Shown: positions 6,936 through 45,203 of the stretch, piece by piece
Position numbering within the stretch: position 1 is the stretch's first letter
Layout of the letters: every line of letters begins with the position of its first letter
Origin: Cytobacillus pseudoceanisediminis
GTDB taxonomy: Bacteria > Bacillota > Bacilli > Bacillales > Cytobacillaceae
Direction: 5' to 3'
DNA length: 64,000 nucleotides
NCBI RefSeq assembly: GCF_023516215.1
Contig: NZ_CP097350.1
Coordinates: 124,001 to 188,000, forward strand
Notes under the pieces: generated by a model
Seen by the model: only the letters and a program-made list of their open reading frames with translations
Told to the model about the DNA's origin: nothing
Databases searched by the model: none
Made by a program: the position numbers and the translations under genes

Positions 6936-6971
6936 ATCATAATAAAAATAAATGCAGAAATTATGGATAAT
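6936..6971 (-). promoter_or_regulatory. 11-base direct-repeat promoter of the Met-rich oxidase
   Basis: Read on the minus strand: ATTATCCATAA, TTTCTGCATTT, eight bases, then -10 TATGAT. This matches the arrangement at eight other genes in the window. No good -35 box is present, so an activator is expected. Confidence 0.65.
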
Positions 6972-7194
6972 AAAATTTATAACGAAATTTTTTATGTAAT
7001 ACATTGGTCATCTAATTTAGATTTATTACACCATTCATATTTGTAGGGGATTATATTCTGCGAAAAATGATGTTAACCTAAATAATGTATAGATGAGGTG
7101 GCGAATATTAATTAATTACCAGATGAATATTTTTTTCAAGCTTTACTTAGCCCAATCAAGCGGAGAAAACCGAAAAGATGGGAAGTGATGTCGT

Positions 7195-7317
7195 ATGGCA
7201 TGTTGTACCAATAGGAAAGAAAAAAATGGTAAAAAGAGAATATCCTCAGGGTTATTTTTTATTATCTGGTCTATGATTTTGGTAGTAATAGGTATTTTAA
7301 GTATTGTATTTAGATAA
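7195..7317 (+). CDS. 40-residue Cys-pair membrane protein
   Basis: The reading frame gives MACCTNRKEKNGKKRIS followed by one hydrophobic helix (GLFFIIWSMILVVIGILSIVF) and a terminal Arg. A CC pair at residues 3-4 and a basic stretch precede the helix, suggesting a small inner-membrane protein with an exposed thiol pair that could hold metal. GGGAAG lies about nine bases before ATG 7195. A hairpin terminator follows 20 bases downstream, which supports a separate short transcript. I do not recognise the family. Confidence 0.55.
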   Translation: MACCTNRKEKNGKKRISSGLFFIIWSMILVVIGILSIVFR

Positions 7318-7335
7318 AACTGAAGATTTCTTACT

Positions 7336-7369
7336 GAACAGGGAATGCAGTTTTTCCTGTTTATTTTTT
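7336..7369 (+). terminator. Terminator after the small Cys-pair gene
   Basis: AACAGG (7337-7342) pairs with CCTGTT (7356-7361), followed by a run of T's. Confidence 0.6.
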
Positions 7370-7530
7370 TGCGAGAAAACTATTATCCTACACCCCAAAT
7401 ATGAAGATTTGATGGATTTCAAAAGATTGTTAGACTTTTTGAATATTTACTTGTATAAGTGAAATAAATCACTTTTCAATTCTTCTTTGCTTAATAAGAT
7501 TACGTTAAATTCGCAAAGGAGGTCATTTTC

Positions 7531-8645
7531 ATGACTAAGTTAAAAATGAGTATATTCATTGCTACTTTGATATTAGGAGCGTTGATATTGGTTGGATGCA
7601 GTTCAGCAAGTAAAACTGGGGACAATGTAGCTGCAAACAAAGTTGAAGACAAAGAACAACAAACAGAAAACAATGATGAACATGCTGACGGGACGAAAAC
7701 AGTCCAATATTATTACACAGCTAACGAAGGAGGCAGCATCTCAAAAATTGATGCAGCAACCAATTCAATCGTATCGACAATAGAAGTAGATGGTTCTGTT
7801 CATAATGTTCAGGTAGCACCAGACGGAAAAATGATTGGGGCAACGGTTGTACCAAAGATGGCGGGGCATGGCGGTGATGATAATGGCCATGGAGAGGAAA
7901 TGGAAATGAGTGCAAAAGCGCTTTTTTCAGCATTGAGAGTGATGAACTGTTGAAGGAGGTCGAAGTTGGAAATCATCCTGCTCACATTGTTTTTACAGAG
8001 GATGGGAAGCATGCGATCGTAACTAACAATGAAGACAACAATGTTACTGTCATTGATATGGCAAGTTTTAATGTGGTTAGAACAGTAGATACAGGAAAAG
8101 GGCCACATGGTTTCAGAATTTCAGCAGACAGTAAGAGCGCTTATATTGCAAACATGGGTGAAGATACAGTCAGTGTTGTTAATCTTGATACGATGAATGA
8201 GGAAAAACGAATTAAAGTAGGAGCAGCTCCTGTTACTACAGGTGTCACTTCAGATGGAAAAACGCTTGTGGCTACATTAAATGGAGAAAATGCTCTCGCA
8301 GTAGTGGATTTGGCTACTGAGAAGGTTGCTAAAATTCCTGTTGGGACTGGCCCCGCACAAGTATATATTGATGAGAAAGATCAGTTTGCCTACGTTGCAA
8401 ACCAAGGAACAGAAGAAAATCCTTCAAACAGTGTGACAGTCATAGATCTTGCTGCAAAAAAAGCAACGTCTGAAATTATAACTGGAAAAGGATCACATGG
8501 AGTTGTAACAAGTCCAGATAATAAGAAGGTTTATGTTACAAATATGTTTGAAGATACGGTGAGCATCATTGATAAAGAAAAGAATGAGGTAATTGAAACA
8601 ATTGAAGTAAAAGGTGTGCCGAATGGAATAACCATTACAGATTAA
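7531..8645 (+). CDS. YVTN/YncE-type beta-propeller lipoprotein, frame broken by an apparent 1-base deletion
   Basis: A lipobox (LVGC, Cys23) and an acidic linker precede repeated propeller blades of the pattern VxVID...V..V..G..P.G.....G...Y..N, from about residue 55 to the end. The frame breaks in the T6 run at 7922-7927; one added T joins AKALFFSIESDELL to the second part, giving about 371 residues. A His/Met-rich loop (MAGHGGDDNGHGEEMEM) sits between blades just before the break and may bind metal. ATG 7531 follows AAAGGAGG. YncE-type propellers are often surface scaffolds or metal-associated proteins; the exact role is unknown. It is a single-gene unit ending in a strong terminator. Confidence 0.8.
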
Positions 8646-8668
8646 GTAAATATAGATTAATAAAATCC

Positions 8669-8706
8669 CAAAAGCCGCCTAATAGTAATTAGGCGGCTTT
8701 TTCTTT
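8669..8706 (+). terminator. Strong terminator
   Basis: AAAGCCGCCTAAT (8671-8683) pairs with ATTAGGCGGCTTT (8688-8700) and a T-run follows. Confidence 0.9.
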
Positions 8707-8779: not shown

Positions 8780-8815
8780 TTCTTGCACATTTTCTCGATA
8801 TTATCCAGTTACACT
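8780..8815 (+). promoter_or_regulatory. 11-base direct-repeat promoter of lgt
   Basis: TTCTTGCACAT, TTTCTCGATAT, eight bases and TACACT form the shared arrangement; the -10 is weak. The second unit closely matches TTTCTTGATAA at 11542. Confidence 0.5.
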
Positions 8816-8850: not shown

Positions 8851-9666
8851 ATGGAAAGTATTGAGGCAATTGACCGTATAGCCTTTGAATTAGGGCCATT
8901 CACAGTCTATTGGTATGGATTGATTATTGGAACAGGGCTGTTTTTAGGTTGGCTTCTTGCGACAAGAGAATCAAAAAAACTTGGACTAGATAAAGATATA
9001 TTTGCTGATCTGTTATTGTGGGCGATTCCTATATCAATTTTGAGTGCAAGACTCTATTATGTGATTTTTAAATGGGATTATTATATTCAAAACCCTGGCA
9101 AAATGATAGCGATTTGGGAAGGTGGCATAGCTATTCATGGAGCACTAATTGGTGCAGTAGTGACTGCGATTATTTTTGCAAGAAAAAAGGGCCTCTCATT
9201 TTGGAAACTTGCTGATATTGCGGCACCGAGTCTTCTTCTAGGCCAGGCAATTGGAAGATGGGGTAATTTTATGAACCAGGAAGCGCATGGAGGAGAAGTT
9301 ACCCGTTCTTTCCTCGAAGGACTTTACTTACCAGACTTTATCATTAATCAAATGTATATCGAAGGAGCCTATTATAATCCTACCTTTTTATATGAGTCAC
9401 TATGGAATATAGCAGGCTTTTTCATTTTAATTCTAATCAGGAAATTCCCTATAAAGCGTGGAGAGGTTTTTCTTTCATATATAATCTGGTATTCTGTGGG
9501 CAGATTTTTTGTAGAAGGACTAAGAACGGATAGTCTGATGCTTACAGAATCAATAAGAATTGCTCAACTCATGTCCTTAAGCTTGATTATAGGTGCTGCA
9601 GTCTTAATCTACTTAAGAAGAAGGTCAGGGAAAGCTAGCCATGGATATGCTGAAGAGATTAATTAA
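8851..9666 (+). CDS. lgt: Prolipoprotein diacylglyceryl transferase
   Basis: This 271-residue membrane enzyme moves diacylglycerol from phosphatidylglycerol to the lipobox Cys of prolipoproteins. It has the family landmarks HGALIG (His96), [13 protein letters not shown] (about 135-147, the Lgt signature with Arg136 and Asn139) and the late Arg in VEGLRTDSL. About seven membrane helices are predicted. ATG 8851 follows AGAGGTG. It stands alone, without the hprK/hisC neighbours usual for the housekeeping copy, so it is probably a second lgt. Its direct-repeat promoter links it to the nearby lipoprotein genes (oxidase, YdhK, ZnuA-like) whose products it could lipidate. Confidence 0.95.
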
Positions 9667-9995: not shown

Positions 9996-11453
9996 ATGAA
10001 GCTTAAAACTCTTATTTCAGACATCACTAATTCATTGGAGTACGCATCTGACATTGAAGTAAACCGAATTCAGTTCAAGTCAAGAAATGTAAAAAAAGGA
10101 GACATATTTGTTGCTATAAAGGGATTAAAACATGATGGCCACAACTTCATCAATGAAGCTATTTCTAATGGAGCCGTTGCTGTTGTAGGTGAAGCAGAAT
10201 ATGATTGTCTTCCTGTTCCATACATTAAGGTCCAAGATGCTAGGCAAGCCCTGGGGAATCTGGCTAAAACTTTATACTGTGATCCATCTAAGATGCATAA
10301 CATGATTGGGATCACTGGAACAAATGGAAAGACCACAACTGCTTATATGGTAAAACATATTTTTCAAACTGCTAGCGAATCCTGCTCACTCTTCAGCACG
10401 GTTTCAAACTTTGTGAATGGGACTGAACTCATGTCTACTGCAACTACACCTGACATACTTGAATTAAATAAAATGCTTCGGATGAGTATGGACAAGAATG
10501 TTGTAATGGAAGTTTCCTCACATGGGCTGCATCAGAAAAGAGTAGAGGGAATAGAATTCAATTATGGAATTTTCACTAACCTTACTCATGATCATTTAGA
10601 TTATCATCAAAATATGGAAGAGTATTTCAATACAAAGGCCGGATTATTTAAGCTTCTTAAAAAAAATGGTGAGGCCATCATTAACTCAGGCTGTCCCTGG
10701 GGAAGGAAGTTAATAAACCAATTAAAGAACAAGCGTCAGTCTGTCTTATCATTCGGAACTTCTGAGAATGATGATCTTCAGTTATTAAGCACTAAAGATG
10801 GAGTTTCAAAAATAAGAATACAGGGTTCTAATGTAAAGTTAGAGATCAAAATGCCCATGCCCGGAAATCACAACCTGCAAAATGCACTTGCGGCAATATT
10901 ATGCGCTTATAGGGCTGGGGTAAATGTCAATGATATTAAAAGAGCAGTAGAAAGTTTCCCTGGAGTTCCTGGGAGATTTGAAGAATATTATAGCCAAAGT
11001 GTCAACTTTATCTTAGATTACGCACATACTCCAGATGGTCTAGAAAACCTTTTGGAAACAGTAAAAAAATTAAATGGGAATAGAATTGTGCATGTATTTG
11101 GCTTTAGAGGTAACAAAGATATGACCAAGAGGCTAGCAATGCTTGATATTTCCGCAAAATATTGTGACAAAATAATATTAACACTTGATGACTTAAATGG
11201 TGTTGCACTAGAAAAAATGATATTAGATTTAAAAAAGTCAGTTAATTACATTGGAACAAATAATATCCATCTGATAATAGATCGGACAAGGGCTATTGAG
11301 TATGCATGGAAAAACTCAATAAAGGGAGATCGGATTGTAATAACCGGTAAAGGACCCGAACTTTATGAACGGGAGTTTGAATTACCAGCTGACAGCGATG
11401 CAGAAACAATCAAATATTTGTTTTCGAAAAGCTACAAAGCATCTAATGTATAG
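9996..11453 (+). CDS. MurE-like Mur ligase lacking the diaminopimelate motif
   Basis: This 485-residue ATP-dependent ligase has the three Mur domains. An N-terminal UDP-binding part includes the RNVKKGDIFVAIKG pattern. The ATPase core has GTNGKTT (108-114) and the MEVSSHGL and NLTHDHLDYH segments. The C-terminal domain has DYAHTPDGLENLL and FGFRGNKDMTKR. MurE adds diaminopimelate or lysine to UDP-MurNAc-Ala-Glu. The DNPR motif that selects diaminopimelate is absent; the equivalent segment reads LTLDDLNGVALEKM. It is therefore probably a paralogue with another substrate rather than the housekeeping MurE. No mur genes flank it. ATG 9996 follows GGAGG. The substrate is unknown. Confidence 0.85.
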   Translation: MKLKTLISDITNSLEYASDIEVNRIQFKSRNVKKGDIFVAIKGLKHDGHNFINEAISNGAVAVVGEAEYDCLPVPYIKVQDARQALGNLAKTLYCDPSKMHNMIGITGTNGKTTTAYMVKHIFQTASESCSLFSTVSNFVNGTELMSTATTPDILELNKMLRMSMDKNVVMEVSSHGLHQKRVEGIEFNYGIFTNLTHDHLDYHQNMEEYFNTKAGLFKLLKKNGEAIINSGCPWGRKLINQLKNKRQSVLSFGTSENDDLQLLSTKDGVSKIRIQGSNVKLEIKMPMPGNHNLQNALAAILCAYRAGVNVNDIKRAVESFPGVPGRFEEYYSQSVNFILDYAHTPDGLENLLETVKKLNGNRIVHVFGFRGNKDMTKRLAMLDISAKYCDKIILTLDDLNGVALEKMILDLKKSVNYIGTNNIHLIIDRTRAIEYAWKNSIKGDRIVITGKGPELYEREFELPADSDAETIKYLFSKSYKASNV

Positions 11454-11530: not shown

Positions 11531-11566
11531 AAACTGCATATTTTCTTGATAAAGATATGCGATAAT
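11531..11566 (+). promoter_or_regulatory. 11-base direct-repeat promoter of the MsrQ-like gene
   Basis: AAACTGCATAT (11531-11541), TTTCTTGATAA (11542-11552), eight bases, then GATAAT (11561-11566). It resembles the sites before the kinase and resA-like genes. Confidence 0.6.
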
Positions 11567-11673
11567 ACTTTCTAGCCTTTTAACCCAATGTGCTATTTTA
11601 AACCCAATAATTTGACATATTAAAACTGATCTTAATGAAACTCCGGGAAAAAAGAAAAGGGGTATTGTTTACC

Positions 11674-12315
11674 ATGGGCATATTAACAAGGCACTTGGTT
11701 ATTGGATTGACAAGCATAATTCTAGTCTATTTATTCTTAGTTAGCCGTTCAGAATGGAGTCCAATGCATGCCTGGAACAGGGCTTATGCTGATGTAGCTC
11801 TTGTTTTTCTTATTTTAACCATTATTATTGGTCCATTAAGCCGAGTAACAAACCTATTTGTCCGCTTTTTATCCTGGAGAAGGGAGTTGGGGATTTGGTG
11901 CTTTATTATGGCAGTCCTGCATGTCTATATACTTTTCGAGGGATGGTTTTACTGGGAACCCATCAGATTAATTATTGGCGTTATTCAAGAAACGGGCCAG
12001 CTTTCTTTTGATCCTGGTTTCACCCTTGCAAATATTCTAGGTACAGTGGGACTTGCCTATTTACTTTTACTTGCTTTGATATCTAATAATAAAGCAATAG
12101 AAGTACTGGGAAAAAAGTTGGAACTACCTCCAGAAAAAAGTGGAACTCTATACATTTTGATCATATTGCACACGGCGTTCTTTCTCTTCTTTTTTAGACT
12201 AGGGAGTTATAACCCGGTACAAAAGCCTTTTCTAGTGACGGTGACTGTTGTCTTGGTGCTCCATTGGATTGTTTTTTTACAAACTGTCCTAAAAAGTAAA
12301 ATAAGGAAACAGTAG
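11674..12315 (+). CDS. Ferric-reductase-like membrane protein (MsrQ/YedZ type)
   Basis: This protein of about 213 residues has six predicted helices and the YedZ/MsrQ-like segment WRRELGIWCFIMAVLHVY, where Arg-Arg-x-Leu-Gly precedes a helix with a haem-ligand His. A further His lies in IILHTAFF. MsrQ supplies electrons to MsrP for repair of oxidised methionines in extracytoplasmic proteins. No msrP is visible here, so the partner is unknown. The likely start is ATG 11674, eleven bases after AAAAGGGG; an in-frame ATG at 11635 has no ribosome site. A direct-repeat promoter upstream joins it to the envelope copper set, and repair of Met-rich copper proteins would be a natural job. That role is inferred. 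Confidence 0.65.
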   Translation: MGILTRHLVIGLTSIILVYLFLVSRSEWSPMHAWNRAYADVALVFLILTIIIGPLSRVTNLFVRFLSWRRELGIWCFIMAVLHVYILFEGWFYWEPIRLIIGVIQETGQLSFDPGFTLANILGTVGLAYLLLLALISNNKAIEVLGKKLELPPEKSGTLYILIILHTAFFLFFFRLGSYNPVQKPFLVTVTVVLVLHWIVFLQTVLKSKIRKQ

Positions 12316-13150: not shown

Positions 13151-13209
13151 TGTTAAAGATAATTTAATTAATCTAATCAAATGTGAAAATATATGATTGG
13201 GGTGTTAAC

Positions 13210-15164
13210 ATGCTTGGTATTAATCTTTTTAAATCACTTTTAAACAAAAAACTTGGCCTTTTTTATATTGTAGTAATATTCTTTTGGATAAAAACTTATT
13301 TAATTTACAAAACCGAATTTAATTTAGGGGTCAGCAATGCTATGCAGCAGTTTTTATTATTGCTCAACCCAATAAGTTCTGCCCTTTTATTTTTAGGAAT
13401 TGCCTTATTCTTTATAGGGAGAAAACAGCATTGGGTGCTGCTGGCCATGAATTTTATTTTAACATTCTTCTTATATGCTAATGTTGCTTATTATCGCTTC
13501 TTTAACGATTTTATTACTGTTCCAGTTCTTTTCCAGACACAGAATTTTGGGAAAGTTGGAGGGAGTGCCGCAGCGCTTCTAGAGCCAACTGACATCCTGT
13601 ATTTCTTTGATACTTTATTGTTACTTGCTTTAATTCTTTCAAAGAGACTGAAAATGCCGGGTCGATTACCGAGAAGAACTTTAAGTAAGGTATTTTTATC
13701 GGGATTATTGCTACTTGGAGTAAATGTTGGGCTTGCTGAAGCTGATAGGCCTCAATTGTTAACTAGAAGCTTTGATAGAAATTATCTTGTAAAGTATCTT
13801 GGTGCATATAATTTTGCTATATATGATATTATCCAAAACACAAGGTCTTCAGCCCAAAGAGTTATGGCTGACAGCAGTGATATTACAACAGTTGAAAATT
13901 ACACATCATCCAAACATGCAAAGCCTAATCCCGATTATTTTGGTACAGCCAAAGGAATGAATGTCATTTACATTTCGTTGGAATCGTTTCAGAATTTTCT
14001 TATCGGATATAAACTACATGGAGAAGAGGTCACTCCTTTCTTAAACTCATTAGCAAAAGATCCGAACGCAATCTATTTTCCGAATTTTTTCACCAGACAG
14101 CACAGGGCAAAACGTCTGATGCCGAATTCCTAATGGAAAATTCATTATATCCCCTTCCTCAAGGATCTGTCTTTACGACTAAAGCACAAAATACGTACCA
14201 GGGATTACCCGCTATCTTAAAAGATAAAGGCTATTATTCTGCCGTTTTTCATGGGAATAACAAATCATTTTGGAATAGGGAAGAAATGTATAAGTCATTG
14301 GGATACGATATGTTTTATGACTCAACTTATTATAATATGAAAGAAGAAAATGTTATAAACTATGGGCTGGAAGACAAGCCATTTTTTAAAGAGACTATCC
14401 CTTATTTACAATCGATTCCTCAGCCATTTTATGCCAAGTTAATTACGCTGTCTAATCATTTTCCCTATCCGATTGACGAAGAAGATCAGTCGATTGAGCC
14501 TGCAGAAACAGGAGACGAGACAGTTGATGGCTATTTCCAGACTGCACGATATTTAGATGAAGCTCTAAAGCAGTTTTTTGAAGATTTAAAGCTTACTGGT
14601 CTTGATAAAAATACCATGGTAGTGATGTACGGAGATCATTATGGAATTTCTGAAAACCGCAAAAAGCCAATGTCAAAAGTTATGAACAGAGAGATAAATG
14701 ATTTTGAGCAAGCTCAATTGCAGAGAGTGCCGCTTTTCATATACGCACCAAGCCTGAAGGGATTTGTTAATGAAACTTATAGTGGTGAAGTTGATGTGCG
14801 CCCAACAGTCTTAAACCTTCTTGGTATTGACACTTCACATCAGGTAGCCTTTGGAACAGACTTGTTATCAAAAGAAAGAGATCAGATTGTCGCGTTTAGA
14901 AATGGCGACTATATTACCGATAAGGTAACTTCAGTAAAAGGTAAAATCTATGATAACGAAACAGGACAAATTGTTGAGAACATTACACCATATCAAAAAT
15001 ACTCAGAAATTGTTAAAAATGAACTTGAGTTATCCGATAAGGTGGTATATGGGGACTTGCTGCGTTTCCACAAACTTAGCGGAATTCAGACAACGGATAA
15101 ATCAAAATTGGACTATTCAAAAGCTGAGCATTTCAATGAAGACTGGGTTGAGCAGCAGAAATAG
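13210..15164 (+). CDS. LtaS-type lipoteichoic acid synthase / sulfatase, frame broken by an apparent 1-base deletion
   Basis: The restored protein has about 651 residues, the usual LtaS length. Five membrane helices occupy the first 200 residues, then a linker and an extracellular sulfatase domain. Key parts are NVIYISLESFQNF (metal Glu), GKTSDAEF with the catalytic Thr, and MVVMYGDHYGISE (metal Asp-His). The enzyme polymerises glycerol phosphate from phosphatidylglycerol. The frame breaks in the T6 run at 14085-14090, just before the catalytic Thr; one added T restores NFFHQTAQGKTSDAEF. ATG 13210 is preceded by GGGGTG; GTG 13183 is an alternative. Bacillus carries several LtaS paralogues, and I cannot say which this is. 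A terminator follows. Confidence 0.88.
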
Positions 15165-15190: not shown

Positions 15191-15226
15191 ATTTTCATAC
15201 TTTCTGCATATTTTAGAAGTTATATT
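15190..15226 (+). promoter_or_regulatory. 11-base direct-repeat promoter of the ZnuA-like gene
   Basis: AATTTTCATAC (15190-15200) and TTTCTGCATAT (15201-15211) keep CATA in 11-base phase. Eight bases later comes TTATAT/TATATT. Confidence 0.55.
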
Positions 15227-15297: not shown

Positions 15298-16266
15298 TTG
15301 TATAAATTAATGTGGCCAATACTGTTTGCTATTGGCATTTTGGTCCTTGGGGGATGCAGTCAAGCAACTCAAGAGGAAAAGAACACTCAAGCTGATGATG
15401 AGAAATTAAAAATTTACACGACAATCTTTCCGCTTCAGAATTTTTCAGAAAAAATTGGAGGGGAATTTGTAGAAGTAGAAAATATCGTTCCAACAGGATC
15501 TGATGCTCATTCCTTTGAACCTACAACTAAAACTATGATCAAAATCGCTGAGGGGGATGCTTTTATCTATTTAGGAACAGGAATCGAAGGGTTTGCCGAT
15601 GCAGTCATTAGTGCCGTTAAAAATGAAGATACTGCCATTGTAAAAGCATCCGAAGGAACTCCTCTAATTGGAGCTCAGAAATCTCCCGAAGATGAACATG
15701 AAGTAGAAAATGATGAGGCTCATGCTGGTGAAGAGGGAGAGGTTGATCCTCATGTTTGGCTTGATCCAGGCAGATCGGTACAGCTTGCTGAAAATATAAA
15801 GAATGCATTAATTAAAATTGATCCTAGCCAGCAAGATTATTTTGAAAAGAATTTTCAGGCTCTCAAAGCTGATTTAGAAACTGTAGACTCTAACTTTGAA
15901 AGCATGGTCAACGAGTCAAAAAATAAAACCTTCATCGTTGCCCACTCTGCCTATGGATATTGGGAAGATGCCTATGGTTTAAAGCAAATTGGAATTAGCG
16001 GCCTTTCTCCTAGTGCTGAACCATCTCAAAAACAGCTTGAAGAAATCATTAAAACAGCTGAAAATGCAGAATTAGATTATATCCTTTTCGAGCAAAATGT
16101 CGAAAATCGGGTTGCTGAGGTCATAAAAAGAGAACTCGGAGCAGAAACTCTGACTCTTCACAATTTAGAATCATTAACTGAGGAAGATATTCAAAACAAT
16201 GAAGACTATATAAGCTTAATGAATAAAAATATAGAAACCTTAAAACAAGCACTGAATAATACATGA
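15298..16266 (+). CDS. ZnuA/AdcA-type metal-binding lipoprotein
   Basis: The 322-residue cluster A-I solute-binding protein has a lipobox (LGGC, Cys20). Metal ligands are seen in GSDAHSFEPTTKT, DPHVWLDP and IVAHSAYGYW, plus a late acidic residue in ILFEQNVE. An acidic His-containing loop (about 125-142, EDEHEVENDEAHAGEEGEVDP) is typical of zinc binders. It should deliver Zn(II) or Mn(II) to an ABC importer, but no znuBC partner is nearby, so it is an orphan. The start is TTG 15298 with GAGGAGG nine bases upstream. The promoter carries the shared direct repeats, so I infer control by the local two-component system. Confidence 0.88.
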   Translation: MYKLMWPILFAIGILVLGGCSQATQEEKNTQADDEKLKIYTTIFPLQNFSEKIGGEFVEVENIVPTGSDAHSFEPTTKTMIKIAEGDAFIYLGTGIEGFADAVISAVKNEDTAIVKASEGTPLIGAQKSPEDEHEVENDEAHAGEEGEVDPHVWLDPGRSVQLAENIKNALIKIDPSQQDYFEKNFQALKADLETVDSNFESMVNESKNKTFIVAHSAYGYWEDAYGLKQIGISGLSPSAEPSQKQLEEIIKTAENAELDYILFEQNVENRVAEVIKRELGAETLTLHNLESLTEEDIQNNEDYISLMNKNIETLKQALNNT

Positions 16267-17483: not shown

Positions 17484-17819
17484 TTATAGTTAGTAGTGCA
17501 GAAGCAGTAATAGAGTTCTTAAAAACCATTAACTACAGGATGTGTGCTGTAATTTTGCAAAAGAGAACCAAACAGATTTACTTTTAAATGTTTTTAGTAA
17601 TCAAAGAAAATATCTTCCTTTGTTTTCTGCGAAGAAATGGAACTTTCAATTTTGTTGAATTTAAAGCAATATCCTCTACCTTTACACCATTGTTATATGG
17701 CTTTATTTTACTAACTCAGATACCCCTATACAATTTTCTGCTACAAAAGGACCTTCATATCCATAAAAAATTCATATTTGTCTGAGAAACTATTCTCAAA
17801 AACGATTGGTGGGAAAGAA

Positions 17820-20958: not shown

Positions 20959-20994
20959 TCCTTCATAAAATCTTCATAATTAAATGGTATCAAT
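20959..20994 (+). promoter_or_regulatory. 11-base direct-repeat promoter of the CcdA-like gene
   Basis: TCCTTCATAAA and ATCTTCATAAT are adjacent, followed by seven to eight bases and TATCAA. The repeats agree at eight of eleven positions. Confidence 0.55.
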
Positions 20995-21072
20995 GAAAAA
21001 GGAGCTATCTTTAACAGTGAACCTAAACTTTTTTACAGATTAATGAATGATAACAAGGCAGGGGAATTAAAT

Positions 21073-21806
21073 ATGTATGAATTTTTCAGTACAATAAGCA
21101 ACTTCTTTAGTCAACCTCTAATTAATATAGGTTTGAACACCAAGGACATTCCCATAATTTCTGCTTTTATTTTAGGCCTTGTCGGCGCATTGGCTCCATG
21201 TCAATTTACTGGGAATCTGGGCGCGATTACACTATATGGAAATAAGTCTTTCCAAAAGAATATTGCCTGGAAAGAAGTTTTGTTCTTCACGCTTGGGAAA
21301 ATTGCTGTATTTTCCTTTTTTGGATTATTAGTGTGGATCTTCGGAAGTGAAATAAAGACTTCTTTGACAGTTTACTTTCCTTGGATAAGAAGAATTATTG
21401 GTCCTATGTTTATATTGGTAGGTTTATTTTTACTTGGATTTATTAAATTAAGTAAAACAATCTCCTTAGGGGGATTTTTCAAAAGTTCCAAAAGGAAGGA
21501 AGCTTAGGCGCATTCTTTATGGGAGTAAGTTTTAGCCTTGGTTTTTGTCCAACCATGTTTGTATTATTTTTCATCACACTGATGCCAATGGCTATCTCTG
21601 TAAATTATGGGATGATACTCCCTCCTATCTTTGCAATAGGGACTTCTTTGCCTTTGATTATTGCTGTATTTCTTATATGGTATCTAGAGCTGGGAGGTAA
21701 GTTAATGAAAAAGGGGCGAAGAATGGGGGCTATTGTGCAAAAAGCAACAGGCATCATTATGCTGATAATTGGAGTATTCGATACTATTACTTACTGGAGT
21801 TTTTAA
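21073..21806 (+). CDS. CcdA/DsbD-like membrane thiol-transfer protein, frame broken by an apparent 1-base deletion
   Basis: The restored protein has about 244 residues and six predicted helices. Two internal half-repeats each hold a Cys-Pro or Pro-Cys: GLVGALAPCQFTGNLGAI and FSLGFCPTMFVLFF. These are the paired membrane cysteines of CcdA-like proteins, which carry reducing power from cytosolic thioredoxin to the outer face. The frame breaks in the T5 run at 21475-21479; one added T gives GFFQKFQKEGSLGAFF. I choose ATG 21073 because GGGG lies just before it. The ResA-like protein at 44300-44821 is a natural acceptor and has the same promoter type. Confidence 0.78.
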
Positions 21807-33964: not shown

Positions 33965-34312
33965 GTGCAATCTAAATTCAATACAAATGCATTATTAATC
34001 GAAGAAGAAAGCTGCTGCGCAAGCGAGAGTGAGAGAAAAAGTCACCATTCGGATAAGGTAAAAAACAATCTTGTGACTCGATTAAACCGAATAGAAGGCC
34101 AAATCCGCGGAATAAAAGGTTTAATTGAAAGAGACACTTATTGTGACGATGTCATTACTCAAATATCAGCAACACAATCTGCGTTAAACAGCGTGGCAAA
34201 AATTCTTTTAGAAGGGCATTTAAAAGGATGCGTAGTGGACCGCCTACAACAAGGGGATTTGGAAGTATTAGATGAAGTACTTGTTACTGTCCATAAGTTA
34301 ATGAAAAAATAA
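33965..34312 (+). CDS. csoR: Copper-sensing repressor CsoR
   Basis: The 115-residue all-helical repressor has the family core NLVTRLNRIEGQIRGIKGLIE and the Cu(I)-binding triad Cys60 (DTYCDD), His85 (EGHLKGC) and Cys89. Copper binding releases it from G-rich operators. A 30-residue N-terminal extension with a CC pair and HH pair is longer than in many homologues. The start is GTG 33965 after AAGGGGAAG. An operator lies just upstream and copZ is 14 bases downstream, so the pair is an autoregulated operon. Confidence 0.96.
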   Translation: MQSKFNTNALLIEEESCCASESERKSHHSDKVKNNLVTRLNRIEGQIRGIKGLIERDTYCDDVITQISATQSALNSVAKILLEGHLKGCVVDRLQQGDLEVLDEVLVTVHKLMKK

Positions 34313-34533: not shown

Positions 34534-34540
34534 ATCAGAA

Positions 34541-34576: not shown

Positions 34577-34583
34577 AAAAAAT

Positions 34584-34600: not shown

Positions 34601-34664
34601 ATAGAGAGCAACTCACGTTACATCAAATTCATCCTCATTTCAATCTAAAAAGGAGGAATAAAAT

Positions 34665-37094
34665 ATGGCGGAGCAAACAATAGCCAAGACGCAAGCGAAG
34701 GCTACTGGGGAAAATGTCACATTGAGCATAACCGGTATGACATGTGCTGCATGTGCAACCCGTATTGAAAAAAACATTACGAAGGTTCCAGGTGTAAAAA
34801 AAGCTAGTGTTAACCTTGCTACAGAAAAAGCTTCTGTAACGTATGATCCTACAGAAGCCACTGTTGAAGATGTTATTGCAAAAATAAAAAAGACAGGTTA
34901 CGGGGTTCAGGAAGAAAAAGTCCAGCTTGATATCATAGGAATGACATGCGCAGCGTGTGCAACCCGTGTTGAAAAAGGGCTAAAAAAGATCGAAGGGATA
35001 ACAAGTGCAGCTGTCAATTTAGCAACTGAAAAAGCTAATATAGAGTACATTCCTGGAAATACGAATATCGAGCAAATAATAGCTGCTGTAAAAAAAGTCG
35101 GCTATGATGCCAAGGTAGTTGGCGATAGGGATGAGGATTATGAGCGCAGCGCAAGGGAAAAAGAGTACAAAACACAGATAAGGAAGTTTACTATTGGGGC
35201 AATTCTATCCGTATTCTTTTTAGTTCAAATGATATCGGATTTTGCAATGGAATATGGTAATGGAATGTTTTTTCATATGAGTCCTTGGGTCCAATTTCTT
35301 CTTGCTACTCCAGTTCAATTCTATGTGGGCGGCCATTATTACCGTGATGCATACAATGCGGTTCGCGGTGGCAGTGCTAATATGGCTGTCTTAGTTGTAC
35401 TGGGGACTTCAGCCGCCTACTTTTACAGTCTTATTGTCACTATTTTAGGTACAGGGCAATTCTTATATTATGAAGCAGCTGCCATTGTTATGACTTTAAT
35501 TGTTTTAGGAAAACTGCTTGAAACAAGAGCTAAAGGACAAACATCAGAAGCGATCAAAACGCTGATGGGGCTTCAAGCAAAAACAGCTAGGGTCATTCGG
35601 GATGGAGAAGAACTTGACATTCCTCTTGAAGAGGTTCAAACAGGAGACTTGATCTTTGTTCGTGCTGGAGAAAAGATTCCTGTTGATGGAGAAATAATAG
35701 AGGGAAACACTACTGTTGATGAATCTATGCTAACAGGCGAAAGTATGCCTGTTACAAAAGGAACAGGCGATACAGTCATTGGAGCAACGGTAAACAAACA
35801 TGGTGCATTTACATTTAAAGCTACCAAAGTGGGTAAAGATACGGCATTAGCCCAAATTATTAAACTTGTCGAAGAGGCTCAAGGTTCGAAAGCTCCTATT
35901 CAGAAACTCGCTGATAAAATATCTGGGATCTTTGTGCCAATCGTAATCTTAATAGCACTTGCTACATTTGCTATCACTTACTTCCTTGCAGGATTTACTC
36001 CTGCACTTGTCAGCACTATTGCTGTACTTGTTATTGCATGCCCTTGTGCATTAGGCTTAGCGACACCGACTGCTGTAATGGTTGGTACTGGTAAGGGTGC
36101 TGAGAACGGACTTCTTATCAAAGGGGCAGAACATCTTCAAACTTCACAGCGGGTAACTACTGTTGTATTGGATAAGACCGGAACGATTACAAAAGGGGAA
36201 CCAGATGTAACAGATATCGTTACTTTTGGAAAATTCTCAGAAGATGAATTACTGCAGGTGGCTGCATCTGCTGAAAAAGGATCGGAGCATCCACTTGGAG
36301 AAGCAATTATTAATGGAGCAAAAGAAAAAGGTCTTCAGCTTCAAGATGCCCAAGACTTTATTGCCATTCCAGGTCACGGCATTCAAGTTAGTATCAGTGA
36401 TCAAAAGGTATTTATAGGAAATAAAAAGCTAATGCTCAAAAATAATATAGATATAGGTGCTGCGTTAAGTCGGATGGAACAGCTTGAAGGAGAAGGGAAA
36501 ACCGCTATGCTTATAGCAGTCAATGACAGTCTTGCCGGAATAATAGCAGTAGCGGATACAGTTAAAGAAACATCTGCAAAAGCAATTAAACATCTAAAAA
36601 ATATGGGTATAGAAGTTATTATGATTACTGGCGATAATAAGTTGACAGCAGAAGCAATTGCCAAGCAGGTGGGGGTTGATCGGGTACTTGCTGAAGTACT
36701 TCCTGAGGACAAATCAGCCGAAGTCGAAAAATTAAAGCAGGAAGGAAAAATTGTAGCCATGGTTGGGGATGGTATCAATGATGCGCCGGCACTGGCTGCA
36801 GCCCATGTTGGTATTGCTATTGGAACGGGGACTGACGTTGCAATGGAGGCAGCAGATATCACTTTAATGCGTGGTGACCTGATGGGAATAGTTGATACCA
36901 TCAGCTTATCCAAATCAACCATGAGAAAAATAAAACAAAATCTCTTCTGGGCATTTGCCTATAATGTTATATTGATACCTGTTGCAGCAATTGGCCTTTT
37001 AAACCCAATTCTCGCTGGAGGAGCCATGGCTTTCAGTTCTGTCTCGGTAGTAGGTAATACTTTATTTTTGCGAAAATGGAAGCCTGTACGCTAA
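34665..37094 (+). CDS. copA: Copper-exporting P1B-1 ATPase CopA
   Basis: The 809-residue pump exports Cu(I). Two N-terminal HMA domains have MTCAACATR (Cys27/30 and Cys95/98). Eight helices follow with the CPC ion motif (459-461, [12 protein letters not shown]). The catalytic parts are [15 protein letters not shown] (Asp503), SEHPLGEAI and [11 protein letters not shown] (near 701), and the last helix has [14 protein letters not shown] 34665 follows AGGAGG. It has its own CsoR-type operator and a terminator at each side. Together with the CPH-type CopB it gives the region two copper pumps of different class. Confidence 0.97.
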
Positions 37095-38880: not shown

Positions 38881-39195
38881 CCCTTCTTTAAAACAACAGG
38901 AAAGTTAATTCCGAAATCTTAGATGTTTAACAAGGAAGACAATCGCATTAAAAGAGATTATGGTTTTTCTTTTCTCAATAATATGCAAGGTAAAAAGTAT
39001 TTGTGTATGCATAATTTATGCAAATATTTTAGGTATAAGTAAGATACAGAGAAATTAATCGGCTTGGAAAATTATATACTCTCCAAAAATCAAAAAATAG
39101 AACCACTCTGGTTAGTGTGTAGTAACTTGTAAATCACTCACGATCGAATGTACCACTTTAACTTTGAAGGACTAATAAGATTGGAGATATAATAA
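38881..39195. other. Intergenic region, 315 bases
   Basis: The only recognised element is a direct-repeat promoter at 39004-39039. Confidence 0.4.
39004..39039 (+). promoter_or_regulatory. 11-base direct-repeat promoter, target probably the small gene at 39196
   Basis: TGTATGCATAA and TTTATGCAAAT are adjacent, followed by eight bases and TATAAG. It fits the pattern of the other sites well. Confidence 0.55.
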
Positions 39196-40199: not shown

Positions 40200-40804
40200 A
40201 TTCTTCTCTCCCTTTCTCTATAAAGATGCAAATTCAATCTTCAATAATCCTGCTCTTTCGCTCAAGAAGTTCCTCATACATAATACCATAAAAAGTAAAA
40301 ACAACATTCTTTATGAAAAGAGCCTTCAAGAACAATAGTTATATACCTAAGCAGCCGATAAAGAAGTTGGGATAAAGAAAGAGGTTCTTCCTTATATTTT
40401 TAAACGTTTTTACAGAGGGATAGATCCAGGAACAGCAAAACAGGAGGAATTGGCATAAAGTTCTCCATCGAAATAGCACTAGTTAATGTAAACGCGGGAG
40501 AAATAAATATAAAAGTTAATATATGCTGGCAGCCACTCTGGCTGTTCTTATTTCCTATTAAAGGTAACCACTAACACGTTGTGCGGCTTGCCATTAATTA
40601 TTAAATAGATACTCTTAAAAATAGCCATTTGTATAGTCTATAGTATTTATCAAATAAAAATCCCAAAGCTATGCAGAAGAATAATTTAGTTTCTAGTGGG
40701 GAATAGATTTAAGGACAAAATTTTTTATAGAAACTGCTTTCATCACATTTTCTGCACATTTTTTAGGTATGATATTCTAAATTACTTAAGGAGGAGTTAT
40801 TTAA
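40200..40804. other. Intergenic region, 605 bases, no gene recognised
   Basis: It contains a small hairpin near 40533-40550 and the direct-repeat promoter of ydhK (40738-40773). No credible reading frame with a ribosome site was found. Confidence 0.45.
40738..40773 (+). promoter_or_regulatory. 11-base direct-repeat promoter of ydhK
   Basis: TTTCATCACAT (40738-40748) and TTTCTGCACAT (40749-40759) agree at nine of eleven bases. Eight bases later is TATGAT (40768-40773). This is the clearest of the nine sites. Confidence 0.75.
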
Positions 40805-41421
40805 ATGTTAAAAATGAAATTAAGGAATTCTATGTTATTTGCATTACTTACTGCTCTTTTATTACTTTTGGGAGCTTGTTCAAATGCAAATGATGAAAAC
40901 ACGGGAAACAATGAAGGCAACGAGAATACAGAAGAGAGCCAAGAGAATATGGATGAAGATATGGAAGGCATGGATCACAGTAATATGGATATGTCTGGAT
41001 CGGGCGAAGTTCCCGAAGGTTTAGAAGAAGCAGCTTCACCAACTTATGAAGTTGGAAGCAATGCGATTATTGAATCTGATCATATGCCAGGTATGAAAGG
41101 CGCTGAAGCAACTATTGTAGGGGCATACGATACTACTGTTTATACTATCTCTTATACTCCGACAACGGGGGAGAAAGAGTGGAGGATCATAAATGGGTCA
41201 TCCATGAAGAAATAGAAAACGCCGGTGAAGAACCTTTTGAACCTGGAGCAGAAGTTACTGTAAATGCAGAACATATGGAAGGCATGGACGGAGCAACTGC
41301 AGAAATTGATTCAGCTGAACAAACAACTGTTTACATGGTTGACTTTACTACGACAACTGACGGCAAAGAAGTGAAAAATCATAAATGGGTGACTGAAAGT
41401 GAGCTATCCCCAGCTGAATAG
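40805..41421 (+). CDS. ydhK: YdhK family (DUF1541) lipoprotein, frame broken by an apparent 1-base deletion
   Basis: Lipobox LLGAC (Cys25) and a very acidic, Met-containing linker with MEGMDHSNMDMSG precede two DUF1541 repeats. These have ESDHMPGMKGAEAT and NAEHMEGMDGATAE, each ending with HKW. The Met/His motifs suggest Cu(I) binding on the cell surface. The frame breaks in the G5 run at 41167-41171; one added G gives PTTGGERVEDHKWVIHEE, matching its paralogue at 16540. The restored length is about 205 residues. ATG 40805 follows GGAGGAG. Direct repeats upstream and the adjacent two-component genes suggest local control. Confidence 0.88.
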
Positions 41422-41532: not shown

Positions 41533-42209
41533 TTAATCCTTTCCTGTCCATTTATATCCCACACCCCAAACTGTCAGTAAATAATCATCCGCCGGAAATC
41601 CTGCCTTTCTCAGCTTTTCTCGTATGTTTCTAACATGAGAGTCAATTGTACGGTCTTCAATTGATACCCCAAATCCCCAAACCGATTCAATTAAGTGATC
41701 TCTAGAGAAAACCTTGTTTCTGTTACTTATAAGTAACTGTACCATCGCAAATTCTTTAGGTGTCAACAATACCTCTTTATCTTCATAATAAAGCTCATAG
41801 GAATCTGGTTTTAGTAAAAGACCTTTAAATGCGATGAACTCATCTTCTTTTGCAGTTCTTCTAAGTACTGCTTCAATCCTTGCTACAAGTTCTTCTTCAT
41901 CAAATGGTTTTAAAATATAATCATCTGCACCTAATTTTAACCCTTTAACAATATCAGGTTTCTCACTTCTCGCTGTGAGCATGATTATCGGGATATCCCT
42001 GACTTTTTTAATTCTTTGCATGCTTTCCAGCCATCCATTTCAGGCATCATCACATCTAATAATATTAGATCTGCGGGTTGTGATTCTATAAACCTGATTG
42101 CTTCTATTGCAGATGACTTTTTGACGCAATTATAACCTATTGGGGTTAAATACAGGGCAAGTAAATCCAGCATTCTAGATTCATCATCAACTAATAGTAT
42201 CGTTTTCAA
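41533..42209 (-). CDS. OmpR-family response regulator, frame broken by an apparent 1-base deletion
   Basis: The restored 225-residue protein has a receiver domain (DDES acidic pair, phospho-Asp in LILLDVMMPEMDG, MLTARSE, Lys in YILKPF) and a winged-helix DNA-binding domain (LTPKEFAMVQLL, RDHLIESVWG, TIDSHVRNIREKLR). The frame breaks in an A6 run (T's at 41995-42000 on the plus strand); one added A gives KELKKVRDIPIIML. I choose TTG 42209, which lies after AAAGGAGC and overlaps the kinase gene by 23 bases, suggesting coupled translation. OmpR-type regulators bind direct repeats spaced 10-11 bases, which is the pattern found at nine promoters here, including this operon's own. Confidence 0.9.
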
Positions 42210-43596
42210 TTTTATCTGCTCCTTTAAAGACAAGTTCAAATTCTGTTCCTTTTCCTTCCTTGCTTCTCACAGAAACAGTCCCCCCATGGGCTAGAACAAG
42301 CTCCTTTACAATGGCGAGCCCCAAACCTGTTCCTCCTAAAGATCTCGTTCTGGATTTATCTACACGATAAAAGCGGTTTAGAATATAAGGCAGATCTTCT
42401 TCGGGAATCCCTTTTCCATTATCTCGAACTTTAATATAGACATCCTTCTTTTTATTGTTTACAGATAGAATCGTTTTGGCCCCAGGTGGAGAGTATTTAA
42501 TAGCGTTATCCAGTAAATTAAAGATGATTTGCTCAAGCCTAGTAGGATCAGCGATAATAACCGCTTCTTTTGGACAAATTACATCCAATTCCATTTCTTT
42601 TTCTTGGAAAGCCGGAGAAAACTTTTGCTCTATTTTCAAAATAAAGTCTGTTAAGTCTATAGGTCTTTTCTGTATAACGAACGAATTTTTATCCATTTTC
42701 GCAAGATCAAAAAGATCCTTAATTAAATCAGAGAGACGATTTGCTTCTTCATGAATAATATTTAAATATTTATCTCGATCCTCAATAGATAAATTCCTTT
42801 TATGAACAATATCGGCATATCCCTTGATATAGGTGAGGGGTGTCCTGAGTTCATGAGAAATGCTCGCCAAAAAATCGTTTCGCTCTAGTTTTAAATAATG
42901 TAAATCGCTTGCAAGCCGAGAGATAGAATCGGCTAAATCCCCAAGTTCGTCATTCCTATTTTTGGGGAGAGAAACAGTAAAATCTCCTTTACTGATTTGA
43001 GAAGTAGCTTCCTTCATTTTTATTAAAGGTTTAGCAAGACCTTTTGAAAGAAAAATGATTACAGTTAAGGTTAAAAAGACAGCAAATATTCCTGTTAATA
43101 TAAAGTGTTTATTTAGTCTGTCAATCAGAGAGTGTATCGATTCTGTTTCTTGAAACATAAAAACCTTCGCGGTAATGTCGCCATCTATTTCGACAGGGCT
43201 AACCGTTGAGATAAACTTTCCCTCTTTCCAGTTACCGTCAACTACCTCTCCATCTCGTGGGATTACTGAGTCTGCACTATTAATATGGTCTTGAATATCG
43301 CTGCTTTTTGATGAGGAACCAAGTATTCGACCATTCATATCGGTAATAACGACATCCGTATTTGCCTCGGATTCCATTAAAGATACATGAGAGATTGTAT
43401 CTTGATCAAAATGCTTTTCGAGAATGTCCCTATGGGCGTTACCTCTAGCTTGTAAAGAAATAAACTCTTCTTCTATTCTTGAATCTACAAGGGCCGAGTG
43501 TAAGAAGAAAAACATAAAAATCTCAAGGCTAAAAATAATTAGAAAGAATACTATTCCAAGCTTTATTGAAAGCTTTTTTTCATTTATTTCACCCAT
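42187..43596 (-). CDS. Membrane histidine kinase
   Basis: The 469-residue sensor has a first helix (about 12-32), an extracytoplasmic domain (about 33-150), a second helix (about 160-182), HAMP, a HisKA domain with ISHELRTPLTYIKG (His near 247) and an ATPase domain (NLLDNAIKYSPPG, DNGKGIPEEDLPYIL, GGTGLGLAIVK). It phosphorylates the co-encoded OmpR-type regulator. The sensor domain shows no obvious Cys or His cluster, so direct copper binding cannot be claimed. ATG 43596 has a weak ribosome site. Its promoter at 43620-43655 carries the regulon repeats, which suggests autoregulation. Confidence 0.93.
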   Translation of the reverse strand: MGEINEKKLSIKLGIVFFLIIFSLEIFMFFFLHSALVDSRIEEEFISLQARGNAHRDILEKHFDQDTISHVSLMESEANTDVVITDMNGRILGSSSKSSDIQDHINSADSVIPRDGEVVDGNWKEGKFISTVSPVEIDGDITAKVFMFQETESIHSLIDRLNKHFILTGIFAVFLTLTVIIFLSKGLAKPLIKMKEATSQISKGDFTVSLPKNRNDELGDLADSISRLASDLHYLKLERNDFLASISHELRTPLTYIKGYADIVHKRNLSIEDRDKYLNIIHEEANRLSDLIKDLFDLAKMDKNSFVIQKRPIDLTDFILKIEQKFSPAFQEKEMELDVICPKEAVIIADPTRLEQIIFNLLDNAIKYSPPGAKTILSVNNKKKDVYIKVRDNGKGIPEEDLPYILNRFYRVDKSRTRSLGGTGLGLAIVKELVLAHGGTVSVRSKEGKGTEFELVFKGADKIENDTIS

Positions 43597-43619
43597 TTCC
43601 CAAGAAGCTGCTAATTTAT

Positions 43620-43655
43620 ATTATATTTCATGAATTTGAAGAAATTATGCAGAAT
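43620..43655 (-). promoter_or_regulatory. 11-base direct-repeat promoter of the kinase/regulator operon
   Basis: Read on the minus strand: ATTCTGCATAA, TTTCTTCAAAT, eight bases, TATAAT. The 22-base repeat part differs by a single base from the site before the resA-like gene. Confidence 0.75.
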
Positions 43656-44226
43656 AAGGTGATACTCTTTGGATATTATTACTTGTGACTATATCTGAAT
43701 TTACTTAAGTGATAAGTATTTCTTTAATACTGTATCAATAGTTCTTTTTTTGACGGCCTTGTATGCTTTAAAAAGGAAGGAAACATTATTCCTCTGAAGC
43801 AGCGTAATTATGGGTAGTTCCGATAGCGGTCAAGTTTATTCTTCCCACTAAAAAAACAAACCAAGTTGTCATCGGACCAAGCAACGGTTGGAGAATAGGA
43901 ATCTACGGATGAAGTCACAATTAGTTTGAGAATTTCCACCCTTAATACAATATATAAAGGCTTCACACCTATTTATTATAATAAGAGTGTAGCAATTAAA
44001 GAAAACTTATTTCTTTACAGGGAAATTGTAATGGTTGGAATATTCGCAGTTTAGCAAATCCATAATAGATATAGCAGAGTTTAGCTATCTACTAAACAAA
44101 TTATTTAGATAATTGATGAAGAAATGCATTTGCCGTCTTAAATGCGCTGCGGACATTATAAGTTGACCGTTTGGCTTAAGATTAAGGTATTCATGATTTA
44201 AAAGTCACTTGCATTCTATTAAACAT

Positions 44227-44272
44227 TAAATCCCAATTTCTCAATATAATAATGAGAAATTGGGATTTTTAT
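44227..44272 (-). terminator. Terminator after the ResA-like gene
   Basis: AAATCCCAATTTCTCA and its complement (44253-44268) form a long stem; a T-run follows on the plus side. Confidence 0.8.
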
Positions 44273-44299
44273 TAACCGACCTTTGGAGTCAGCGTTTTG

Positions 44300-44821
44300 T
44301 TATGGGGCAATTGAATTCATATAATCCCCTATATTTTCCTCAGTCAAAGTTCCAGTTAAGGTTTTAACAACATTCCCATCCTTATCAATTAAGATTGTAG
44401 TGGGTATTGGGCCAATGTTATATAATTCCGTTACAACACTTCCCCTGTCCATCAAGATTGGAAACGTCAAGTTATGTTTTTTTACGAAAGTCGAGACAGC
44501 TAAGTCACTTTCATCTATATTGACCGCGAGAATTTCTACACCTTTCTCTTTATATTGTTTATATTGATTCTCCATATATGGCATTTCTTTTTCACAAGGT
44601 TTACACCATGTGCCCCAAAAATTCAAAAATACCCCTTGTCCTTTTAAATCAGATAATCTTATTTGATCTCCGTCCAAGGTTTCTAAAGAAAAATCAGGAG
44701 CAGCTGTCCCTTCTTTTATTGAAACTTTATCTTTTGTCAAATTGGCGTAAAGAGTATAACCGACAGCACCAAAAAGCAACAACAAAATTACACAACGTAT
44801 GATCAATCTCTTAGTTTTCAT
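44300..44821 (-). CDS. ResA-like membrane-anchored thiol-disulfide reductase
   Basis: The 173-residue protein has a signal anchor (about 6-27) and a TlpA/ResA thioredoxin domain: APDFSLETLDG, LNFWGTWCKPCEKEMPYM with the active-site CKPC, and GPIPTTILIDKDG with the cis-Pro. ResA-type proteins reduce disulfides on the outer face, for example in apocytochrome c, drawing electrons from CcdA. ATG 44821 follows GAAGGAG; an upstream in-frame start lacks one. No cytochrome c genes are nearby, so another thiol client, perhaps a copper protein, is possible. The promoter has the regulon repeats. Confidence 0.88.
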   Translation of the reverse strand: MKTKRLIIRCVILLLLFGAVGYTLYANLTKDKVSIKEGTAAPDFSLETLDGDQIRLSDLKGQGVFLNFWGTWCKPCEKEMPYMENQYKQYKEKGVEILAVNIDESDLAVSTFVKKHNLTFPILMDRGSVVTELYNIGPIPTTILIDKDGNVVKTLTGTLTEENIGDYMNSIAP

Positions 44822-45167
44822 AAAAATCTCCTTCGTTGTTTCACTATAATTATAATGAAAATGGTTATTAGAATATTTGAGAAGCATATATGTAAAAAGG
44901 GCTTATAACTCTTGGTGGAAACCCAGTGGAGTTACATACTTTAAAAAATTTAATTTTCCTAATTCAATATATATATAGACACCCAAGAAGGTCCTCTTAT
45001 TTTAGCTATTATCTTAATTAATACCAAAAATAAAATGATGATACACGCAGTTAGAGCCAAAAAGGGCATGCTAATACAGCCAAACCGGTTAATTATTGGC
45101 AAACTGTAAAGTACCGCTTAGAGACATATTGGCACAAATGATGGTCCCTTCTAAACTTCTAATTTAA

Positions 45168-45203
45168 ATTATATGTCTTAAATTTGAAGAATTTATGCAG
45201 AAT
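45168..45203 (-). promoter_or_regulatory. 11-base direct-repeat promoter of the ResA-like gene
   Basis: Read on the minus strand: ATTCTGCATAA, ATTCTTCAAAT, eight bases, TATAAT. Confidence 0.75.

Follow-up and report, generated by a model that had tools for sequence, protein, structure and literature searches.

Related copper systems

Copper control in Bacillales and Lactobacillales is usually described via the repressors CsoR or CopY. A copper-linked two-component system is known as well, namely LcoRS of the Lactococcus plasmids pND306 and pNZ712, which takes part in regulating the copper resistance genes lcoABC (PMC5152845). With pNZ712, Lactococcus lactis can grow at CuSO4 concentrations of up to 4 mM, and derivatives without the plasmid fail at 0.8 mM; the authors of that study attribute the resistance to lcoRSABC, to a P-type ATPase or to both, and refer to Khunajakr et al. 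(1999) for transcription inducible by copper (PMC5152845). Here we analyse a 64,000-base stretch of the soil bacterium Cytobacillus pseudoceanisediminis (the window; bases 124001-188000 of contig C2), in which a sensor histidine kinase and a PhoB-like response regulator lie among promoters that share two adjacent 11-base direct repeats followed by a -10 box (the box, for short). An initial annotation had pointed out nine such promoters and had seen in them an envelope copper/thiol regulon under the neighbouring regulator. We consider it very likely that these boxes, together with a tenth at 57678, are sites of LcoR-type PhoB-like regulators that drive an envelope copper regulon. The box, its conservation, the gene set and the link to the kinase family are computed results, and they give the copper-linked two-component family of Bacillales and Lactobacillales a concrete DNA box that can be scanned for.

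LcoS of pNZ712 is 39.5% identical to the window kinase over residues 6-453 and carries the same H55/H70/M74/E75 pattern. On that plasmid the pair is adjoined by genes for the prolipoprotein diacylglyceryl transferase Lgt, a DUF2933 protein, a CHAP protein, a multicopper oxidase (MCO) and a P-type ATPase, with regulator and kinase in the reverse of the window order; judging from gene order, lcoA would be the lgt gene next to lcoRS. The earlier statement that no regulon of such make-up is known does not hold, since LcoRS is a relative, as is perhaps, by its box, CopR of Corynebacterium glutamicum. A copper two-component system is therefore a known kind; a limited literature search found no description of the box, of how far the regulon reaches or of the orphan regulator RR2 (treated below).

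Like the window system, CopRS of C. glutamicum is an envelope copper kinase with its regulator, and its targets include a multicopper oxidase and a P-type ATPase (PMC3140484). The reverse complement of the published CopR box, TGAAGATTTnnTGAAGATTT (PMC3140484), matches the core of the Cytobacillus box at 14 of 17 bases by reading, with the same 11-base period, so that CopR is perhaps related, as far as the box goes, to the window regulator. The bacterium belongs to another phylum, however, and the account in PMC3140484 differs in describing a single box in the genome, with no Lgt or wall gene among the targets given there. A copper-regulator box may possibly be common to different phyla.

The pho box bound by PhoB consists of two 11-base direct repeats in place of a -35 box; the window box has a like repeat layout, but its letters differ and it precedes copper rather than phosphate genes. 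Staphylococcal CopL we take to belong to the YdhK family. In Staphylococcus, copL and mco, target kinds related to those of the window regulon, are controlled by CsoR, a repressor whose site is a G/C inverted repeat, in contrast to the direct-repeat, activator-type box described here (PMC10233261). In Listeria and Enterococcus, copper induces the second lgt of lgt2-lit2 along with genes for copper resistance, in accounts that, as far as they are drawn on here, name no two-component system (PMC8275575, PMC8689077).

Derivation of the box and its occurrence in the window

The starting sample consisted of the upstream regions of 68 relatives of the kinase gene, with the window excluded, of which 62 were left once near-duplicates had been removed. 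An expectation-maximisation (EM) motif search of these 62 regions, with one of them (L034) entered as a whole 11-kb locus, gave the first, or kinase-promoter, matrix. The search was repeated without L034 on 61 regions of 245 bases each, and both searches yielded the consensus TCTGCAtAaaTTCTtCAaAttTtT.aaaTAtAAT. In the 61 regions this resolves into TCTGCAtAaaT-TCTtCAaAttT-TtT.aaa-TAtAAT, that is, two 11-base direct repeats and then the -10 box, with a motif score of 988.5 as against 151-169 in five dinucleotide-shuffled region sets. The motif noted by eye was thus recovered de novo from promoters outside the window. The columns at the -35 position, from reading the matrix, are AtAaaT (repeat letters) and not TTGACA, in agreement with the remark that none of the sites has a good -35 box.

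Each of the nine sites was confirmed at the coordinate and on the strand first assigned to it. With the first matrix the nine occupy ranks 1, 2, 4-9 and 11 of the top eleven window matches, the other two places being taken by 57678(+), with 24.1 bits, and 7385(-), with 15.6 bits; the 61-region matrix returned the same eleven, all nine sites included. Matches of at least 14 bits number 11, compared with 0.45 per dinucleotide shuffle, and those of at least 18 bits number seven, compared with none in 60 shuffles. The lowest-scoring of the nine are those at 20959, 8780, 15190 and 11531 (14.9-18.3 bits). For a second matrix, 93 sites were picked with the first matrix from kinase promoters and further promoters of relatives, again with the window excluded, and the ten best window matches of this matrix are the nine sites and 57678(+), the lowest at 18.9 bits. 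Ten matches reach at least 18 bits as against 0.01 per shuffle, the top score across 100 shuffles being 18.2 bits, and each of 200 column-permuted second matrices gave at most one window match of at least 18.9 bits. Next in the second-matrix ranking stand 17758(+) at 17.9 bits and 7385(-) at 16.7 bits; over the two matrices these further matches, without an assigned target, score 12.2-17.9 bits (17758-17791) and 15.6-16.7 bits (7385-7418).

The box in the genome, in relatives and on plasmids

The genome comprises two contigs totalling 5.69 Mb, of which C2 (342,541 bases) makes up 6%. Because the best plasmid matches of the kinase (87.7% identity) sit on Cytobacillus oceanisediminis and C. firmus plasmids of 347-387 kb, C2 is probably a megaplasmid. 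A profile of 92 of the 93 second-matrix sites gave 76 genome matches at E<=10 and 29 at E<0.1. Among the latter, 22 are on C2, all within C2:118685-C2:252462, and eight of the nine original sites are included, the exception being 11531. At E<=0.05 the genome holds 26 boxes; for six of these no target is evident, and one more stands before a protein without family assignment.

The target genes genome-wide were named mostly by sequence reading or homology to window genes; family searches cover one D-Ala-D-Ala carboxypeptidase (PF00768) and, via a homologue in another genome, CueP (PF21172). They comprise YdhK (twice), MCO, CcdA, ResA, a ZnuA-like protein, CueP, Lgt (twice), an LtaS-like protein at C1:1886936, two D-Ala-D-Ala carboxypeptidases and two beta-propeller lipoproteins. 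Three kinase operons, a spermidine-synthase-like gene and two copies of RR2 are also preceded by boxes. The target list first drawn up keeps its copper-envelope set; its MsrQ-like and ZnuA-like genes are placed there by their window sites, as tblastn (1e-10), the only search made, found no homologue of either in L002-L069.

The relatives' loci number 39 (780.6 kb, named records, nearly all Bacillales), and the first matrix gave 95 matches of at least 15 bits in them. When boxes were counted from -150 to +350 bases of the extrapolated gene start (-30 to +350 for other open reading frames, ORFs), 21 of 23 ydhK genes had one, compared with 14 of 499 other ORFs of at least 150 aa; resA and murE-like genes had one in a single case out of two each. 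With the second matrix at 16 bits or more, a box precedes the kinase gene in 26 of the 39 loci. By sequence reading, further box targets in relatives include a small protein rich in Cys and P-type ATPases whose ends are rich in His, and the neighbours of the kinase include YdhK, CcdA, MCO, Lgt, SpoIIP and MurE.

We then compared box number at E<=0.05, from a scan with stricter filters, with the presence of a close kinase relative (match at E<=1e-118) in 81 genomes. The 50 genomes with such a relative have a mean of 7.2 boxes and a minimum of one, and the 31 without it a mean of 1.4 (range 0-5). In three kinase-less genomes viewed, the gene behind the box is cueP in L175 and L177 (identified by reading in L177) and codes for an unrelated membrane protein in L176.

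The plasmid loci of Lactococcus, Latilactobacillus, Priestia and Exiguobacterium were in none of the training sets. Full-length kinase relatives are plasmid-borne in Lactococcus (38-40% identity), Latilactobacillus (34%) and others. The loci of L. cremoris SK11, L. sakei and pNZ712 (L180, L183 and L215) all run regulator, kinase, lgt, and each has exactly one match above 12.5 bits (26.5-30.0), located between kinase and lgt; on pNZ712 (19.35 kb) this match, of 30.0 bits and just before lgt, is also the single one of at least 12 bits. The window system accordingly shares with LcoRS both kinase homology over the sensor and catalytic parts and a common box, a candidate LcoR site, although the LcoRS stretch examined has one box as against 26 in the Cytobacillus genome. 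The Priestia plasmid (L182) has boxes before the kinase (34.7 bits) and MCO (26.9 bits) genes, and the Exiguobacterium plasmid (L184) one before ydhK (25.5 bits) and none before the kinase.

The kinase, its sensor domain and the regulator

The regulator is built of a receiver and a winged-helix effector domain, which, with direct repeats of about 11-base period beside a -10 box, places it in the OmpR/PhoB family, as initially proposed. The best NCBIfam match of its C-terminal piece is PhoB (158 bits against a cut-off of 296.2, the piece being incomplete), and the kinase likewise falls below the PhoR cut-off (231.5 against 334.2); these values do not support membership in the PhoPR/PhoBR phosphate system, nor does the heavy-metal sensor kinase model TIGR01386 (218.6 bits against a cut-off of 292.55) support that in the Gram-negative CusRS/CopRS heavy-metal family.

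All 64 kinases compared, that of the window and 63 of the 68 relatives, carry H55, H70, M74 and E75 without exception. No Cys is conserved in the sensor across these 64; in 12 of them a Cys occurs within residues 1-175, at positions near the two ends, which are taken as membrane spans. A predicted model of residues 30-170, from 61 sequences, has a mean pLDDT of 89.9 and shows two N-terminal helices and then a mixed sheet, with H55 on the first helix and H70, M74 and E75 on the second; the helical hairpin may hold a metal site. Compared with solved folds, PDC/PAS sensors score best, with PctD and WalK topmost. Because the invariant residues are His, His, Met and Glu and there is no conserved Cys, copper fits this sensor better than thiols; the copper-envelope part of the regulon first proposed is borne out by the gene set, and its thiol signal is not.

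Proposed course of the response and its alternatives

The copper signal, DNA binding, activation and phosphotransfer are what we infer for this system. The PDC/PAS-like sensor domain would sense copper outside the membrane, probably via H55, H70, M74 and E75, and the kinase would phosphorylate its PhoB-like partner. Two regulator molecules would then sit head to tail on the two repeats, covering the -35 position, and would bring RNA polymerase to the -10 box, which lies 8 bases further downstream, as PhoB does at the pho box. The kinase-regulator operon itself would be switched on, together with copper-binding and copper-oxidising proteins (YdhK, MCO, CueP), a second Lgt to lipidate such proteins, the thiol-redox proteins CcdA and ResA, and wall or teichoic-acid enzymes (MurE-like, D-Ala carboxypeptidase, LtaS-like). 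This envelope arm would run beside a cytosolic arm of CsoR and a copper ATPase (33965-37094), boxless in the window scan. The box would then predict which genes a Gram-positive cell turns on to shield its envelope from copper. According to a commentary on E. coli, copper modifies the lipobox cysteine and so blocks the step catalysed by Lgt (PMC6593411); a second Lgt makes sense if lipidation is blocked here in the same way.

Several observations weigh against this reading. The window regulator gene (41533-42239) is frame-broken in the assembly, and since the genome has two further kinase-regulator pairs of the same family and orphan paralogues besides, the acting regulator cannot be tied to the window copy; of the earlier claim that the regulator at 41533 controls these genes and its own operon, a single regulon and a box at that operon stand, and the assignment to this copy does not. 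In the 39 loci, the box accompanies MCO in 3 of 5 cases, ccdA in 6 of 16 and lgt in 1 of 3 (first matrix), and, with the second matrix at 16 bits or more, spoIIP in none of 4 and LtaS-like genes in none of 2; 13 of the 39 kinase genes have no such box inside 350 bases, and in some of these cases the kinase gene immediately follows ccdA. For pNZ712, the copper phenotype could also be due to its P-type ATPase, as the authors of PMC5152845 allow. The p-values for the kinase/box association (Mann-Whitney, 4e-11; 3e-8 without the own genome and with one box per genome dropped) are only indicative, the genomes being related and the profile partly trained on their kinase promoters. Finally, up to five boxes persist in genomes without a close kinase relative, so that regulators other than the partner of this kinase may use the box.

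This last point leads to the question as to whether another OmpR-family regulator (such as PhoP of the phosphate regulon, WalR or a partner of the 33-36%-identity kinase family) acts at the boxes, the adjacent pair being only another target. Sites of OmpR-family regulators are commonly tandem repeats of like period, and kinases 33-36% identical to that of the window, a second family that may share the box, lie near boxes in G004:C194, G010:C21, G036:C69 and G067:C13. Box number nevertheless tracks the close kinase family, which the box accompanies from Bacillales to the Lactococcus clusters, and the targets are copper genes rather than phosphate or wall-turnover genes, for which reasons we regard another regulator as quite improbable. 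A signal of thiol/disulfide stress or general envelope damage, with the copper genes only part of the response, would account for the ResA-, CcdA-, Lgt-, LtaS-, MurE- and D-Ala-carboxypeptidase-like targets; it seems unlikely, however, given sensors with invariant His, His, Met and Glu in place of any conserved Cys, the frequency of dedicated copper proteins among the targets and the tie of the pNZ712 relative to copper resistance (PMC5152845). The remaining thought, that promoter-like, AT-rich sequence produced the repeats by chance, might be raised by a window of 36% G+C, AT-rich sites and a first set picked by eye. It is hardly tenable against independent matrices, shuffles, column-permuted matrices and the box on independent Lactobacillales plasmids; for the whole set, the shuffle and permutation controls refute it, while the single weak sites at 11531 and 15190 could be chance.

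An orphan regulator behind the box

The orphan response regulator RR2, encoded just outside the window, occurs in eight copies in four genomes (L170, L173, L216-L221), two of them in the own genome. A box of 27-31 bits lies 34-37 bases upstream of all eight copies, two of which are split. The phospho-accepting Asp position is occupied by Glu in seven of them and by Asp in L219. The recognition helix of RR2, NRTIDSHIRNIREKLRQSGY, is almost the same as that of the LcoR-type regulator of L002, DRTIDSHVRNIREKLRKAGF. No relative of the window kinase was found by tblastn (1e-8) in the 9.5-12 kb around the L170, L216-L218 and L221 copies, and a kinase-regulator pair is nearby in L173, L219 and L220. 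Glu can mimic phosphorylation in some response regulators. Tentatively, RR2 might be the regulon's own amplifier, induced by copper and active unphosphorylated, holding all boxes on as a latch or memory; combined with the spare wall enzymes and a second Lgt, it would amount to a self-sustaining, copper-triggered rebuild of the envelope. A regulator with a Glu phospho-site under the regulon's box would allow a direct test for memory of a signal in a metal response.

Organisation of the window

The features discussed are collected in Table 1.

Table 1. Boxes and genes in and next to the window. Box scores are from the first matrix unless the second is named; site positions of the initial annotation are in brackets where they differ.
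Feature	Position	Strand	Score or basis
Box, kinase-regulator operon promoter	43620..43653	-	36.1 bits
Box, duplicate of ancestral kinase promoter, 280 bases before ResA-like ORF	45168..45201	-	34.2 bits
Box before ydhK (40738)	40740..40773	+	20.7 bits
Box before small membrane protein gene (39004)	39006..39039	+	21.9 bits
Box before multicopper oxidase gene	6936..6969	-	22.0 bits
Box before lgt (8780)	8782..8815	+	17.6 bits; 23.0 second matrix
Box before MsrQ-like gene (11531)	11533..11566	+	18.3 bits; genome scan weak, E 0.6
Box before ZnuA-like gene (15190)	15192..15225	+	17.9 bits
Box before CcdA-like gene (20959)	20960..20993	+	14.9 bits; 22.0 second matrix
Tenth box, absent from initial annotation; ATG of MFS/spermidine-synthase-like ORF 409 bases on	57678..57711	+	24.1 bits
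Sensor histidine kinase, 469 aa	42187..43596	-	HisKA, HATPase_c, HAMP
PhoB-like response regulator, split (41985-42239, 41533-42021)	41533..42239	-	Response_reg PF00072, Trans_reg_C PF00486 on two pieces
Met-rich MCO, lipobox-like start	5268..6905	-	Cu-oxidase domains; sequence
Lgt, taken as accessory copy	8851..9666	+	PF01790; TIGR00544 above cut-off
MurE-like ligase, after lgt	9996..11453	+	Mur_ligase domains
MsrQ-like heme membrane protein	11635..12315	+	PF01794 weak; NCBIfam MsrQ below cut-off
ZnuA/AdcA-like metal-binding protein	15298..16266	+	PF01297
CcdA-like (DsbD_2) membrane protein, split in two ORFs	21043..21806	+	PF13386 in both pieces
CsoR-type repressor beside CopA	33965..34312	+	PF02583; no box found (first-matrix window scan)
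Copper P-type ATPase (CopA)	34665..37094	+	TIGR01511 above cut-off; no box found (first-matrix window scan)
Small hydrophobic membrane protein, 51 aa	39196..39351	+	Counterparts in 3 relatives
YdhK-family (DUF1541) lipoprotein, split in two ORFs	40805..41421	+	PF07563, first piece
ResA-like thiol-disulfide oxidoreductase	44300..44887	-	NF002854 above cut-off
MFS/spermidine-synthase-like protein	58122..59726	+	PF01564
Orphan response regulator RR2	C2:122327-123010 (= L170:8327-9010)	-	Just outside window; own genome

The two minus-strand sites, which had been noticed to be nearly identical, owe this to a duplication of the kinase promoter around a 1.5-kb insert. In the relatives L002 and L004, the kinase promoter directly faces a peptide-binding-protein gene. 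In the window, the flank with that gene stops just behind the 45168 box, the kinase side starts at the 43620 box, and the 1.5-kb ResA-bearing segment lies between these two promoter copies (43620-45201). The layout looks as if conserved promoter boxes had acted as recombination joints.

No long ORF follows the 39004 box in the window. The small ORF at 39196 has counterparts of 48, 48 and 52 aa in three relatives, with identical start and ribosome-site sequence and, in all three, a 25-bit box about 160 bases upstream; because these features are kept, the small membrane protein is the likely target of the 39004 box. Its C-terminal part is unlike that of the nearest relative, perhaps through another frame break. 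Genes split into two ORFs are seen at 41533-42239, 40805-41421, 21043-21806, 13183-15164 and 7531-8645. A comparison with C. oceanisediminis 2691, to which a 10-kb stretch of the chromosome is 99.4% identical, suggests that A/T bases are missing from the assembly.

On the C. oceanisediminis plasmid pBO1, a 17-bit box lies 121 bases before the homologue of the MFS/spermidine-synthase-like gene. A second DUF1541 (YdhK-type) gene, of 142 aa, is located behind the ZnuA-like gene (16986-17414).

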